64,000 nt of DNA, taken from the NCBI RefSeq assembly GCF_022829285.1, contig NZ_JAKSYI010000055.1, positions 62,001 to 126,000 of the forward strand. The letters are read 5' to 3'. Numbering within the stretch: the first letter of the stretch is position 1; every line of letters starts with the position of its first letter. Source of the DNA: Methylobacterium sp. J-078 (GTDB taxonomy: Bacteria > Pseudomonadota > Alphaproteobacteria > Rhizobiales > Beijerinckiaceae). The notes under the pieces are model-generated. The model was not told where the DNA came from, ran no database searches, and saw only the letters and a program-made list of their open reading frames with translations. This document shows positions 2,655 to 8,464 of this stretch, piece after piece. Position numbers and translations under genes: made by a program.

Positions 2655-3143
2655 TCAGCCTTCCTTGAAGCCGTAATCCGGTACGCCTTCCTCGTTGCCA
2701 TAGTACTTGTAGGGCAGGAACTTGCCCGAAAGGTTCATCTTCACGCGGTCGCCCTTGTTGTTGGGCTCGCGCTCCATGGTCATATTAAAGTCGATCGCCG
2801 ACATGATACCGTCGCCGAACTCCTCCTGGATCAGTTCCTTCCAGGTGGTGCCGTAGACCATGACCAACTCGTAGAAGCGGTAGATCAGCGGGTCAGTGGG
2901 GGGCATCTGGGCAATGGACCCGCGGAACGGTGCCTCGTTCAGCATGCGCTCCTCGGCCTGCGAGAGGCCGAACAGGGCGGCAGCCTTGGCGGCCTGGGCT
3001 TTGGGCAGTTTCATCTGGCCCATGCAGGCGGCGGTGATCAGGATGGGCGAGATGCCACCGATCTCGTCCTGGATGTATTTCCAGGTCCAGCCCTTCTCGC
3101 GCTTGATGTCGAGGAGCTTCTCGGTGAGGTCTTCGCGCTTCAT
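2655..3143 (-). CDS. cynS: cyanate hydratase (cyanase)
   Basis: Cyanase converts cyanate and bicarbonate to ammonia and carbon dioxide via carbamate, as a cytoplasmic decamer. The 162-residue product has the N-terminal DNA-binding-like helical domain (KGWTWKYIQDEIG) and the C-terminal catalytic domain. The catalytic Arg, Glu and Ser of the E. coli enzyme (R96, E99, S122) are present at equal spacing as Arg89, Glu92 and Ser115 (IYRFYELV and GIMSAIDF). It is the last gene of an operon with the three ABC transporter genes upstream and lies 36 bases after the ATPase gene. Identification is very strong. Confidence 0.98.
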   Translation of the reverse strand: MKREDLTEKLLDIKREKGWTWKYIQDEIGGISPILITAACMGQMKLPKAQAAKAAALFGLSQAEERMLNEAPFRGSIAQMPPTDPLIYRFYELVMVYGTTWKELIQEEFGDGIMSAIDFNMTMEREPNNKGDRVKMNLSGKFLPYKYYGNEEGVPDYGFKEG

Positions 3144-3179: not shown

Positions 3180-4175
<996 letters not shown>

Positions 4176-4180
4176 GGCGC

Positions 4181-5020
4181 TCACTCCGGGAAGGTGACGA
4201 GGCGTTGCGCCCGCGCCAGCACCTGGTCGAGGATCATGCCCACGAGGCCGATGACCAGGATCGAGGTGATCACATTGGTGATCGAGAGGTTGTTCCACTC
4301 GTTCCAGACGAAATAGCCGATGCCGGTGCCACCCACGAGCATTTCGGCCGCCACGATGACGAGCCAGGCGATGCCGATGGAGATGCGCATGCCCGTGAGG
4401 ATGGTGGGCGCCGCCGCCGGCAGGATCACGGTGACGGCCCGGCGGAACGGGCCGACCTCCAGAGTTCGGGCGACGTTGAGCCACTCCTTGCGTGTTCCGG
4501 CGACCCCGAAGGCGGTGTTGATCAGCATCGGCCAGAGCGAGCAGATGAAGATTACGAAGATGGCCGAGAGCCCGGAATCCTTGATCGTGTAGAGGGCGAG
4601 CGGCATCCAGGCGAGGGGCGAGACCGGCTTCAGCAACTGGATGAAGGGGTCGAGCGCCCGGCCCATCAGCGGCGACATACCGATGAGGAAGCCGATCGGG
4701 ATCGCCACGATCACCGCGAGCCCGTAGCCGAGCGCCACGCGGCCGATTGAATAGGCGAGCTGAATGCCGAGCCCCTTGTCGTTCGGCCCCCGGTCGTAGA
4801 ACGGGTCCCGCAGATGCTTCCAGATCGTGGCGCCCACATCGAGGGGCCCTGGCATCGCCGACTTTCCGGTTGTGGCGCTGGCGCCCATGAGCGCGGCGTA
4901 TTCCGGGTCCATCGCCTCGGTCTTGGCCGTGCCGCTCACCGCGATCTGCCAAGTGAGCAGGAAGGCGAGCAGTAGAGCAAGCGAGACGAGGCCGGCGCGA
5001 AACCGAAGGGTGTTGGCCAT
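4181..5020 (-). CDS. nitrate/cyanate-type ABC transporter permease
   Basis: This is a 279-residue inner-membrane permease of the NrtB/SsuC class with about six or seven hydrophobic segments. The first is near residues 10-30, followed by a periplasmic stretch. The cytoplasmic EAA-like loop that contacts the ATPase is visible around NVARTLEVGPFRRAVTVILP, followed by AAPTILTGMRISIG. The gene lies 3 bases after the binding-protein gene and 5 bases before the ATPase start, so translation is likely coupled. The longer N-terminus compared with SsuC is typical of NrtB/CynB-type permeases. Nitrate, nitrite or cyanate are all possible substrates; cyanase in the operon favours cyanate. Confidence 0.93.
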   Translation of the reverse strand: MANTLRFRAGLVSLALLLAFLLTWQIAVSGTAKTEAMDPEYAALMGASATTGKSAMPGPLDVGATIWKHLRDPFYDRGPNDKGLGIQLAYSIGRVALGYGLAVIVAIPIGFLIGMSPLMGRALDPFIQLLKPVSPLAWMPLALYTIKDSGLSAIFVIFICSLWPMLINTAFGVAGTRKEWLNVARTLEVGPFRRAVTVILPAAAPTILTGMRISIGIAWLVIVAAEMLVGGTGIGYFVWNEWNNLSITNVITSILVIGLVGMILDQVLARAQRLVTFPE

Positions 5021-5023
5021 GGT

Positions 5024-6385
5024 TCAGCCCGCCCGCTTGATCTTGAACGAGTCGAGGTATTCCTTCGGCTTGGCCGGATCGAAGGTCTTGCCCATCACCA
5101 CGAAGCTCTTGGTGGTGGTCTCCGGGGGCGTGAGGCCGTTCTGCTTCATCAGCTTGGCGGCATCGGTGGCGAGGTAGACCTTGGCGGCCACGGCCGCATA
5201 GTCGACGTCGCCCTTGATCTGACCCCAGCGCTGCATCTGAGTCATGATCCAGACGGCGAAGGACTGCCAGGGGAAGGCATCGAAATCGACGCGGTCGGGC
5301 ACCTTGCGCACGTTGCCGAGGCCATCCGCGAAGGTGCCCGTCAGCACCTGCTCCACCACCGTCACGGGCTGGTTCAGGTAGTTGGCCGGGGCGATCTGCG
5401 CAGCGATCTCCTTCCGGTTCTCGGCCTTCGACGCGTAGGTGGTGGCCTCGATGATGGCCCGGAGCAGGGCCGCGTAGGTGTTCGGTGTCTGGGTGATGAA
5501 GTCCTGCGAGGCCGCGAAGGCACAGCAGGGGTGCCGGTCCCAGATCTCCTTCGACAGGATGTGGATGAAGCCGACGCCGTCGTAGACCGCGCGCTGGTTG
5601 ACGGGGTCGGGGGCGAGGAAGCCGTCGATGTTGTCGGCGCGCAGGTTCGCGACCATGTCGGGCGGCGGCACCGCGCGGATCTGCACGTCGGTGTCAGGGT
5701 CGATGCCTGCTTCCGCGAGGTAGTAGCGCAGGAGGTAATTGTGCATCGAGTAGTCGAACGGCACCGCGAGCTTGAAGCCCTTCCAGTCCTTCGGATCGCG
5801 CCGGTCCTTGTGCTTCATGGCCAGCGTGATCGCCTGCCCGTTCACGTTCTCCACCGCCGGCATGGTGTAGGGCTGCGGGTTCGAGCCGACCCCCAGCGAG
5901 ATCGCGATCGGCATCGGCGCCAGCATGTGGGCGGCGTCGTATTCCCGGTTCAGGGTTTTGTCGCGGATCACCGCCCAACCGGCGGTCTTCACCACGTCGA
6001 CGTTGAGGCCCTGCTTCTCGTAGAAGCCCATGGGTTTCGCCATGATGATCGGTGTGGCGCAGGTGATCGGGATGAAGCCGATCTTCAGATCGGTCTTCTC
6101 GGGCTTGGCGCCCTGCGCGAAGGCCTCGGCGATGAGGCCCGTGGGCAGTAACTGGCTGACGGCGGCGAGCGCCGTGCCGGCCCCGACGCTCTTCAGGAAG
6201 GCGCGCCGCTCGGCATCCCGCGGGAACAGCGCCCGCATCACCGTGCCCTCGACGACCCGCAGGATCGCCGCATCTCCGCTCGGCAAGGCCGCATCGTGCT
6301 CGCTCTGAGAATCATGCGCGCCGCAGGAGCAGCCGCCGCGACGAAGCCGGCGGGACGCATCGAAGGGATTGTCGAACAGGGCCAT
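5024..6385 (-). CDS. nitrate/cyanate-type ABC substrate-binding protein with Tat signal
   Basis: This is a periplasmic solute-binding protein of the NrtA/CmpA family, 453 residues. A Tat motif (ERRAFLKSVG, residues 59-68) precedes a hydrophobic segment ending in AEAFA-QG. Before it lies a 58-residue N-terminal extension with a CSC...H...H cluster (Cys19, Cys21, His24, His30). The mature part begins with LKIGFIPITCATPIIMAKPMGFY, the family signature, and contains residues of the anion pocket region (KTAGWAVIRD). The start at 6385 was chosen because the sigma-54 promoter at 6419-6433 excludes the upstream in-frame start at 6466, and GAGG sits seven bases before it. First gene of the cyanate operon. 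Confidence 0.93.
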   Translation of the reverse strand: MALFDNPFDASRRLRRGGCSCGAHDSQSEHDAALPSGDAAILRVVEGTVMRALFPRDAERRAFLKSVGAGTALAAVSQLLPTGLIAEAFAQGAKPEKTDLKIGFIPITCATPIIMAKPMGFYEKQGLNVDVVKTAGWAVIRDKTLNREYDAAHMLAPMPIAISLGVGSNPQPYTMPAVENVNGQAITLAMKHKDRRDPKDWKGFKLAVPFDYSMHNYLLRYYLAEAGIDPDTDVQIRAVPPPDMVANLRADNIDGFLAPDPVNQRAVYDGVGFIHILSKEIWDRHPCCAFAASQDFITQTPNTYAALLRAIIEATTYASKAENRKEIAAQIAPANYLNQPVTVVEQVLTGTFADGLGNVRKVPDRVDFDAFPWQSFAVWIMTQMQRWGQIKGDVDYAAVAAKVYLATDAAKLMKQNGLTPPETTTKSFVVMGKTFDPAKPKEYLDSFKIKRAG

Positions 6386-6418
6386 GATTGCCTCGCCGCA
6401 GGGTGATGCCCATCGTTG

Positions 6419-6433
6419 GCAAGCAGCATGCCA
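6419..6433 (-). promoter_or_regulatory. sigma-54 (-24/-12) promoter of the cyanate operon
   Basis: Read on the minus strand the site is TGGCATGCTGCTTGC. It matches the RpoN consensus TGGCAYR-N4-TTGC at every fixed position, with GG and GC separated by exactly ten bases. The predicted start point near 6407 leaves a leader of about 22 bases before the binding-protein ATG. A sigma-54 activator gene lies divergently upstream. Confidence 0.85.
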
Positions 6434-6508
6434 ACGCCCGCGGAAATCTTTCGGCAAATCTGACAACAGCTTAGCGGATCGATCGACATCTACGAGAATT
6501 TGTGATCT

Positions 6509-6541
6509 ACGAAATCACGGAGCCAGACTCCGAAGTTTCGT
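6509..6541. promoter_or_regulatory. 33-bp interrupted dyad, likely activator-binding site
   Basis: ACGAAA-N3-CGGAG (6509-6522) is mirrored by CTCCG-N3-TTTCGT (6528-6541) around a five-base centre. It lies about 80 bases upstream of the -24 element and just before the activator's start codon. This is the usual spacing for an enhancer-like upstream activating sequence and would also allow autoregulation. Binding by the neighbouring regulator is inferred. Confidence 0.6.
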
Positions 6542-6556
6542 GACACAGGACCGCCG

Positions 6557-8464
6557 ATGACCGGACATGCGGGCGGTCAGCCTGACTTCGGACTCGCCTT
6601 CGAGGAGGGTCGCGAGCCCATGCTGGTGCTTGATCCTGCAGCGGACCGCATCGTCGACGCCAACCCGGCCGCCGCCCGCCTGCTCGGGCATCCGCGAGGC
6701 GGCCTTCAGGCCATGCCCGCGAGCACGCTGCATCCCGGCCAGTTGCCGACGCTGATTGTGTTCACGCAGGCGGTGCAGGCCAAGGGCCACTGGTGGACGC
6801 ACGCGCTGAGCCCGCGCCACGGCGAGGGCAGGGCGCTGCGCCTCGAATATGCCGGCTCGCTCCTCACGAGCGCGGCGCCGCTGATGCTTGTGACGCTGTC
6901 CGACCTGGAGGATCGCCGCCATCGGCAGGTCGACGCGCAGGCCGACGCCCACATGCGCGCGGGCCTCTCCGAGTGGCAGCGCATGGAGCGGATCTTTCGC
7001 GATATCGAGCGTGAGAACCAGCTCATCCTGCGGGCGGCCGGAGAGGGCATCTACGGCGTCAACGCCGAGGGGGTGACCACCTTCATCAACCCGGCCGCCG
7101 AGCGCATGCTGGGCTGGGCCGCCACCGACCTCGTCGGCAAGGACATGCACGCCACCGTGCACCACACCCATCCGGACGGGGCGCATTACCCCCACCACGA
7201 TTGCCCGATCTACGCGGCTTTTCGCGATGGCGCCGTGCACCAGGTCGACACGGAGGTGTTCTGGCGCCGCGACGGCACCGCCTTCCCGGTGGAATACACC
7301 TCGACGCCGATCCGCGACCGGGGCCGCCTCCTCGGCGCCGTGATCGTGTTTCGGGACGTCAGCCAGCGCCGCGAAGCCGACGAGCGCCTGCGCCAGGCGC
7401 TCGCCGAGGTCGATTCCCTGCGCGAGCGCCTGGAACTCGAGAACGCCTACCTCAAGGAGGAGATCCGGCTGGAGAGCCACCACCAGGGCATCATCGGCCG
7501 CTCCCCCGCCATCGAGGCGACGCTGCGCCAGATCGACCTCGTGGCCGGCACCGACGCCACAGTGCTGGTTACGGGCGAATCCGGCACGGGCAAGGAGCTG
7601 ATCGCCCGCGCGATCCACGAGGCGAGCCGCCGCCGCGACCGGCCGCTGATCCGGGTGAACTGTGCCGCCGTCCCGCGCGAGCTGTTCGAGAGCGAGTTCT
7701 TCGGCCATGCCAAGGGCGCCTTCACGGGTGCCCTGCGGGACAGGGTCGGGCGCTTCGAGCTCGCGGATGGCGGCACGCTGTTCCTCGACGAGGTCGGGGA
7801 GATCCCCCTCGACCTCCAGGGCAAGCTGCTGCGGGTGCTCCAGGAACGCTCCTTCGAGCGCGTCGGCGACGAGCGCACCCGCGCCGTCGACGTCCGCCTC
7901 ATCGCCGCCACCAACCGGGATCTGCGCGATGAGGTCCGGCGCGGCCGCTTCCGCGAGGATCTCTACTTCAGGCTCAACGTCTTTCCGATCGCGGCGAGCC
8001 CCCTGCGCGAGCGCCCGGAAGATATTCCCCTGATCGCGCAGCATTTCCTGAAAGGGGCCGCGCGCCGCCTGAACATCCCGGAGCCGCGTCTGACGGAAGG
8101 GGATGCGCGCCGCCTTGCGCGCTATCCCTGGCCGGGAAACGTGCGCGAACTGGAGAACGTCATCGAGCGCGGCGCCATCCTGGCCGTGCGCGGCCGCCTG
8201 CATCTCGATCTGCCGGAGGCGGAGCCCACAGCGCGCGGCCGTGACGCGGTCCCGTCCCTCGCCCCAGCGATCCAGCCCGTGACGGAGGGCGAACGGCGCG
8301 CCCGCGACCGCGCCGAGATCGAGGCAGCTCTGGCGATGACCGGCGGCAAGGTGTTCGGCGAAGGGGGGGCGGCCGAGATGCTGGGGCTCCGGCCCACCAC
8401 CCTGGCCTCGCGGATCAAGGTGCTGGGGATCGACGGCCGGGCGTATCGCGGGAAACGGTCCTGA
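6557..8464 (+). CDS. sigma-54-dependent PAS/AAA+/Fis transcriptional activator
   Basis: The 635-residue product has two PAS-like domains (about 15-115 and 150-270), a short coiled coil (275-305), an AAA+ domain (about 310-540) and a C-terminal Fis-type helix-turn-helix. Walker A is GESGTGKE (340-347), the sigma-54-contacting loop is GAFTGA (387-392), and the Walker B region is FLDEVGE near 411. The second PAS holds a His-rich cluster with one Cys (198-216). It is transcribed divergently from the cyanate operon, whose promoter is a sigma-54 site, so it is very likely the operon's activator. The signal is unknown (cyanate, nitrogen status or redox). This contrasts with LysR-type CynR control in E. 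coli. Confidence 0.92.

Follow-up and report, generated by a model that had tools for sequence, protein, structure and literature searches.

The DNA analyzed here, a 64,000-nucleotide stretch from Methylobacterium sp. J-078 (hereafter, the window), carries a set of cyanate genes arranged around a short divergent intergenic region (Table 1). An initial annotation, made from the sequence alone, had described a 171-bp divergent gap at 6386–6556, flanked by an operon for a binding protein, permease, ATPase, and cyanase and by the gene for an AAA+ activator. The open reading frame (ORF) coordinates confirmed the gap, and the ORFs together with Pfam matches bore out the flanking genes, the activator having a PAS-PAS-AAA+ architecture. 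These ORFs and domains make up a CynF-type module, in which a gene for a sigma-54 activator is divergent from cynABDS. The operon and activator ORFs are open in the window, and cynS was the sole PF02560 match when the genome was searched by profile. The genome has one RpoN gene (a single PF04552 match). With its AAA+ domain (PF00158) and a GAFTGA motif in the alignment, the activator has the hallmarks of a sigma-54 enhancer-binding protein; its structure prediction had a mean pLDDT of 77 and a pTM of 0.40. In the second PAS domain, residues H198, H202, and C216 are invariant in 14 aligned relatives and could possibly form a ligand or metal site.

Table 1. Features of the cyanate locus, in window coordinates. 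Clade-left-out scores were obtained with the window's three-genome clade removed from the profile; a perfect site scores 21.0 bits.
Feature	Positions	Strand	Remarks
cynS, cyanase	2655–3143	-	PF02560 (2e-35) and PF21291
cynD, ABC ATPase	3180–4160	-	PF00005; start codon provisional
cynB, ABC permease	4181–5020	-	PF00528
cynA, cyanate/nitrate-type ABC binding protein (NMT1/NrtA-type)	5024–6385	-	PF13379 (5e-88)
Sigma-54 (-24/-12) promoter of the cyn operon	6418–6434	-	TTGGCATGCTGCTTGCC; 12/13 scored positions; conserved
IHF-like core	6464–6473	+	CAACAGCTTA; CAA-N4-TTR, between array and promoter
Enhancer site 1 (predicted)	6492–6503	.	ACGAGAATTTGT; 10.5 bits; 8.8 with clade left out
Enhancer site 2 (predicted)	6509–6520	.	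ACGAAATCACGG; left half of the dyad; 8.8 bits; 5.3 with clade left out
Enhancer site 3 (predicted)	6530–6541	.	CCGAAGTTTCGT; right half of the dyad; 10.0 bits; 7.9 with clade left out
CynF-like activator, 635 aa, PAS-PAS-AAA+-HTH	6557–8464	+	PF00158 (6e-73), PAS families, GAFTGA

For the cyn operon, the initial annotation had proposed a full-consensus RpoN site. Such a site is present and in the right place, with correctly spaced sigma-54 GG and GC dinucleotides in TTGGCATGCTGCTTGCC, but as 12 of the 13 scored positions are matched, it is near-consensus and not quite "full consensus." The transcription start predicted from the -12 C at 6419 agrees with the claimed start near 6407. Without mismatch, TGGCAYG-N4-TTGC occurs at six places in the 5.5-Mb genome, the window site among them. 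To describe conservation, we used 61 loci from 60 genomes of Methylobacterium and Methylorubrum (L009–L069, the genus loci; genome G035 is represented twice, and the gap of G047 was left out). A sigma-54 site with 11 to 13 matches was kept in 60 of these 61. In the exception, L065, TGGCACG-N4-TTGA is found at the promoter position, which by eye is a change in the -12 GC. When the window was scanned loosely, allowing two mismatches, there were 28 matches against 38.5 expected, fewer than chance. Consequently, the case for the sigma-54 site is one of match quality and conservation. The -24/-12 element is also a near-palindrome (TTGGCA-N7-TGCCAA) that scores on the plus strand, and a sigma-54 promoter facing the activator gene was considered; because this symmetry is present in just 11 of 61 loci, it was not adopted. 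A simple scan of 6386–6600 revealed no sigma-70 promoter for the activator.

A refined profile identified a 12-bp palindrome, ACGARATYTCGT, common to the 61 genus gaps. The profile found 183 sites, with three in 57 gaps, two in two gaps, and four in two gaps, compared with a mean of 4.5 and a maximum of 10 in 50 shuffled gap sets (dinucleotides not kept) and with 4 when the gaps were read backwards. Neighboring sites were 17 bp apart in 59 cases and 21 or 22 bp apart in another 59, with four other spacings. Fitting the best triple at each locus gave 17 bp followed by 21 or 22 bp in all 61 loci (17+21 in 44 and 17+22 in 17). We predict that this array is a newly defined three-site enhancer of a known type of regulator. 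The initial annotation had missed the third site at 6492–6503, and with it the three-site array, as well as an IHF-like core at 6464–6473. Dinucleotides were preserved only in the shuffles for dyad symmetry and for the window triple; those for profile site counts, the IHF-like core, best-triple scores, and helical phasing did not keep them.

The window has the lowest-scoring triple of the 61 genus loci (29.3, from a profile built on all 61, the window locus included), and its relative L011 has the next lowest. None of 2,000 shuffles reached this score, and the next-best place in the 64-kb window scored −1.5. The copy in this strain could be decaying, such that affinity of the array has been lost and the operon is poorly induced. 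Besides the low rank of the window and L011, this explanation fits the clade-left-out scores, which are 5 to 9 bits per site where a perfect site has 21. However, decay is hard to reconcile with intact ORFs for the operon and the activator, with the good matches of the sigma-54 site and the IHF-like core, or with exact spacing, and the nearest relative, L010, retains two strong sites (16.6 and 15.1). We consider it unlikely that the window copy is decaying.

Outside the genus, 32 of 37 held-out loci (L071–L107, full-length relatives) had a triple of at least 30 bits. The spacing in these 32 was 17 bp (31 loci) or 18 bp (one locus), then 21 to 23 bp, and 34 of the 37 held-out loci beat all 740 shuffles. 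Array scores were marginal in L090 and L093, where the shuffles were beaten by little, and no array was found in L092, L095, and L101, despite a divergent binding-protein gene and a sigma-54 site. By eye, more diverged repeats are visible in several of these five. Among further relatives (L125–L142), 17 of 18 scored at least 29.9, and L132 had just two strong sites; this set overlaps with the others, as L125 and L126 repeat genus contigs and L130 repeats L077. No array was found in the partial relatives L143–L150, nor in L108–L114. The scoring of named relatives covered L125–L150, among 80 loci, with L152–L204 left out. An additional 21 loci (L210–L230) comprised eight that are cyn-linked, scoring 19.4 to 58.5 (two of them repeat L104 and L106), and 13 that are not, four of which (L219, L220, L222, and L223) scored 23.9 to 39.4 while nine never rose above −13.8.

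Within the genus, the array goes with the activator, and the sigma-54 site does so just in part. A genome-wide scan that took in 110 of 111 genomes found the 17-bp pair, with at most one mismatch, in 54 genomes and a reversed control pattern in two. In 52 of the 60 cynF-bearing genomes, tallied by hand from the listing, the pair is located at cynF; four other matches (in G021, G058, G072, and G106) lie away from cynF, with one mismatch each. The cynS gene is more widespread, being present in 107 of 110 genomes, 48 of them without cynF. Upstream of cynS in 20 genomes sampled from these 48, no array was detected (best score, −12.4), and nine of the 20 (L240–L259) have a sigma-54-like site with 12 matches before cynS. 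Such a site alone is therefore no proof of CynF control, and another activator may be acting at these promoters. A further target elsewhere in this genome was sought and dropped: plain ACGA-N4-TCGT occurs 36 times and the reversed pattern 29 times, which is near chance, and two sites on contig C128, 34 bp from each other, were set aside, the ORFs around them looking unrelated by eye. The 463-kb plasmid pMaq22A_2p of Methylobacterium aquaticum (L208) carries a complete cyn module, and its array is strong (60.5). Lying there between SOS-type and transposase genes, the module appears able to move as a unit.

The distance from array to promoter is also conserved. From the center of site 1 to the -24 GG there are 64.5 to 67.5 bp in 60 of 60 loci, irrespective of whether cynABDS or cynS is downstream. 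The leader from the promoter to the first gene is 32 to 40 nt where the binding-protein gene comes first (37 loci) and 80 to 204 nt where cynS does (23 loci). As the array–promoter distance is constant with leaders of 32 to 204 nt, promoter and array appear to act as one module that is kept as transporter genes come and go. In L016, one of the two loci from G035, 41 codons of the binding-protein gene precede cynS, an apparent trace of transporter-gene loss; the same genome also carries a second, complete-looking copy (L039). Between array and promoter, the motif CAA-N4-TTR occupies a single fixed place, exact in 28 of 61 loci and with the TT in 90–95%, compared with a maximum of 3 in any 4-nt band over 500 shuffles. 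An A-rich stretch lies upstream of it. In the window, this motif (CAACAGCTTA) looks like a candidate IHF core, by comparison with the IHF consensus. Outside the genus, the distances from array to promoter fall into clusters near 55, 66, 76, 88, 98, and 109 bp. This suggests helical phasing (29 groups, R = 0.74 at 11 bp, reached by 0 of 5,000 uniform draws; for the 13 distinct values alone, by 58 of 5,000), and since the groups were hand-chosen and hand-entered from the locus results, the phasing is suggestive only.

The central proposal of the initial annotation had been that the neighboring AAA+ activator acts from an upstream enhancer on a sigma-54 promoter of the operon, and the conservation of the predicted elements backs it as the best reading. 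We think it very probable that the locus is a CynF-type cyanate module, in which the activator on three palindromes, an IHF bend, and sigma-54 polymerase would together bring about cynABDS transcription. Dimers of the divergent activator, presumably through the C-terminal helix-turn-helix, would bind the three copies of ACGARATYTCGT, which stand 17 and 21 or 22 bp apart, and with three dimers there would be six subunits for an AAA+ ring of the kind described for NorR. DNA bending at 6464–6473, probably by IHF, would carry this ring to the sigma-54 polymerase at 6418–6434, and cynABDS would then be transcribed. By extension from Pseudomonas CynF, the signal may be cyanate, perceived via the PAS domains. 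With just 15 nt between the end of the array and the activator ATG, autoregulation is likely, and the bound activator would probably tune its own gene too. A link between the recognition helix (TTLASR or TTLYSR) and the array was also considered and proved loose; for example, L097 and L099 have TTLYSR with good arrays.

The short distance to the activator ATG also fits another arrangement, in which the array would serve chiefly for autoregulation of the activator, and NtrC or some other enhancer protein would be needed for cyn transcription. The sigma-54-like sites at nine of the 20 cynF-less cynS genes are in line with this, as is the repression of the Pseudomonas cyn genes by ammonium described in PMC6627978. 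However, autoregulation alone does not require a constant array–promoter distance with an IHF-like core in between. With up to four mismatches allowed, the window gap showed no NtrC site, and with up to three, 2 of the 61 genus gaps had one. The requirement of cynABDS for CynF in Pseudomonas (PMC6627978) also speaks against this arrangement. We judge it quite improbable and favor activation of cynABDS from the array by the CynF-like protein.

As the operator, the initial annotation had instead put forward a 33-bp dyad, ACGAAA-N3-CGGAG-N5-CTCCG-N3-TTTCGT. These letters are present at 6509–6541, centered 93 bp from the -24 GG, but they are not a conserved unit, and their symmetry (11 of 14 arm matches) is barely above chance, being reached by 17 of 400 dinucleotide shuffles. 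Conservation beside orthologous activators, which had been suggested as a check, fails for the dyad: a single one of the 61 genus loci has all of it, and three have CGGAG-N5-CTCCG. The dyad is composed of sites 2 and 3 of the array, with inner halves that are altered mirror-wise in the window's three-genome clade. That the dyad itself is the operator, bound by the activator or by some other dimeric protein, is highly improbable and was rejected, since its halves coincide exactly with two sites of the conserved array, although its inner part is retained in the two nearest relatives (L010 and L011). The operator is predicted to be the array of three 12-bp palindromes. In place of a doubtful dyad, there is now a conserved, exactly placed predicted operator that can be used for CynF footprinting and for finding cyn and nit promoters in genomes. 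It would also allow a test of whether unequal three-site spacing is a general means of loading AAA+ activator rings.

Similar arrays also occur beside other gene clusters. In PMC11049912, the regulator of Pseudomonas nit1C is named NitA; like the window activator, it belongs to the Fis family of sigma-54 activators, and its gene and operon are divergent. In contrast to cyn, NitA/nit1C is concerned with cyanide/nitrile assimilation. A like three-site array was found in five nit1C-linked loci (L136 and L138 from Pseudomonas, L141 and L207 from Acinetobacter, and L102), with spacings of 18 and 22 to 23 bp and 98.5 to 109.5 bp to the promoter. Site 1 is weak (2.9) in L136 and L138. In a quick tree of 93 rows, the nit1C-linked regulators group as a single clade, with support of 100, that lies nested within the cyn-linked rows, and the two branches above this clade have support of 87 and 94. 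L219, L220, L222, and L223, relatives whose match falls mostly outside the N-terminal part and whose neighboring genes are unrelated, likewise have ACGA-N4-TCGT-like palindromes upstream, two or three in number and at 17/22 bp. Arrays of this kind are thus not confined to cyanate genes, and the grammar may be wider.

Transport genes vary as well. A gene for an FNT-family channel is found beside cynS in L100, L104–L107, and L140, where other loci have the ABC transporter. Seven loci, picked for their unusual-looking neighbors, were read further out, and five of these (L231–L235) have an FNT-type channel gene beside cynS; no binding-protein gene was found there within the stretch examined. From its gene neighborhood, the FNT channel is a candidate cyanate channel. 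We give about even chances to a broader reading, in which one regulator lineage and one enhancer grammar (three ACGA-N4-TCGT sites, 17–18 and 21–23 bp apart, placed near whole helix turns from the -24) would serve both cyanate, through CynF, and cyanide, through NitA/nit1C. NitA would have arisen from CynF with the array kept, and an FNT-type anion channel would replace the absent ABC transporter as the likely cyanate channel. Cyanate and cyanide assimilation would then be linked through one regulator line, with a candidate cyanate channel indicated.

The activator had been taken as uncharacterized, yet a regulator of the CynF type has been published, and it is essential for cynABDS expression in Pseudomonas (PMC6627978). 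In P. pseudoalcaligenes (oleovorans) CECT5344, as given there, cynF and cynABDS are divergent, a putative sigma-54 site precedes cynA, a putative sigma-70 site precedes cynF, and expression is induced by cyanate and repressed by ammonium (PMC6627978). The window resembles this cynFABDS locus in having a gene for a Fis-family sigma-54 activator divergent from cynABDS and a sigma-54 site before cynA. The gaps differ, with 171 bp in the window, from an alphaproteobacterium, and 268 bp in CECT5344 (PMC6627978). In the main text of that report, Figure S1 excluded, words beginning with "palindrom-" and the terms inverted repeat, operator, and IHF are absent. The nearest cyn-linked relative compared, Pseudomonas toyotomiensis L137, has an activator that is 59% identical and a near-perfect array. 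Among the matches listed for literature on cyanate and enhancers and on cyanase and Methylobacterium (titles and abstract openings), we found no description of a three-site enhancer, and four common array 12-mers had no whole-word occurrence in the literature searched. In E. coli, a cyanase operon is likewise the target of control, cynTSX being under CynR, a LysR-type regulator. The contrast drawn with CynR holds, but through CynF it was already in print.

By analogy only, the three-site enhancer parallels that of NorR in E. coli, where three enhancer sites are needed and scaffold the ring, as summarized in PMC2941729 and PMC4987338. NorR–norVW and the window share three unequally spaced sites, a divergent gene pair, and a sigma-54 activator, and by our reading the NorR-like sites in E. 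coli K-12 are 21 and 24 bp apart. However, NorR has a GT-N7-AC site, a GAF sensor of NO, and another helix-turn-helix, whereas the window has ACGA-N4-TCGT sites and PAS rather than GAF domains. The helix-turn-helix of E. coli FhlA is similar to that of the CynF type (GPKGAAQRLGLKRTTLLSRMKRLGI against a 25-residue counterpart), and its enhancer half-site, ACGAAA/TTTCGT, is the half-site of the array. In the FhlA enhancer as listed in PMC4987338, CATTTCGTACGAAATG, the half-sites are in the opposite order, a form that the window array does not take, and the regulon is that for formate. The system is ordinary in kind, a well-conserved sigma-54 enhancer-dependent operon; the type of regulator was already known, while the exact operator and the link with cyanide regulation are new.
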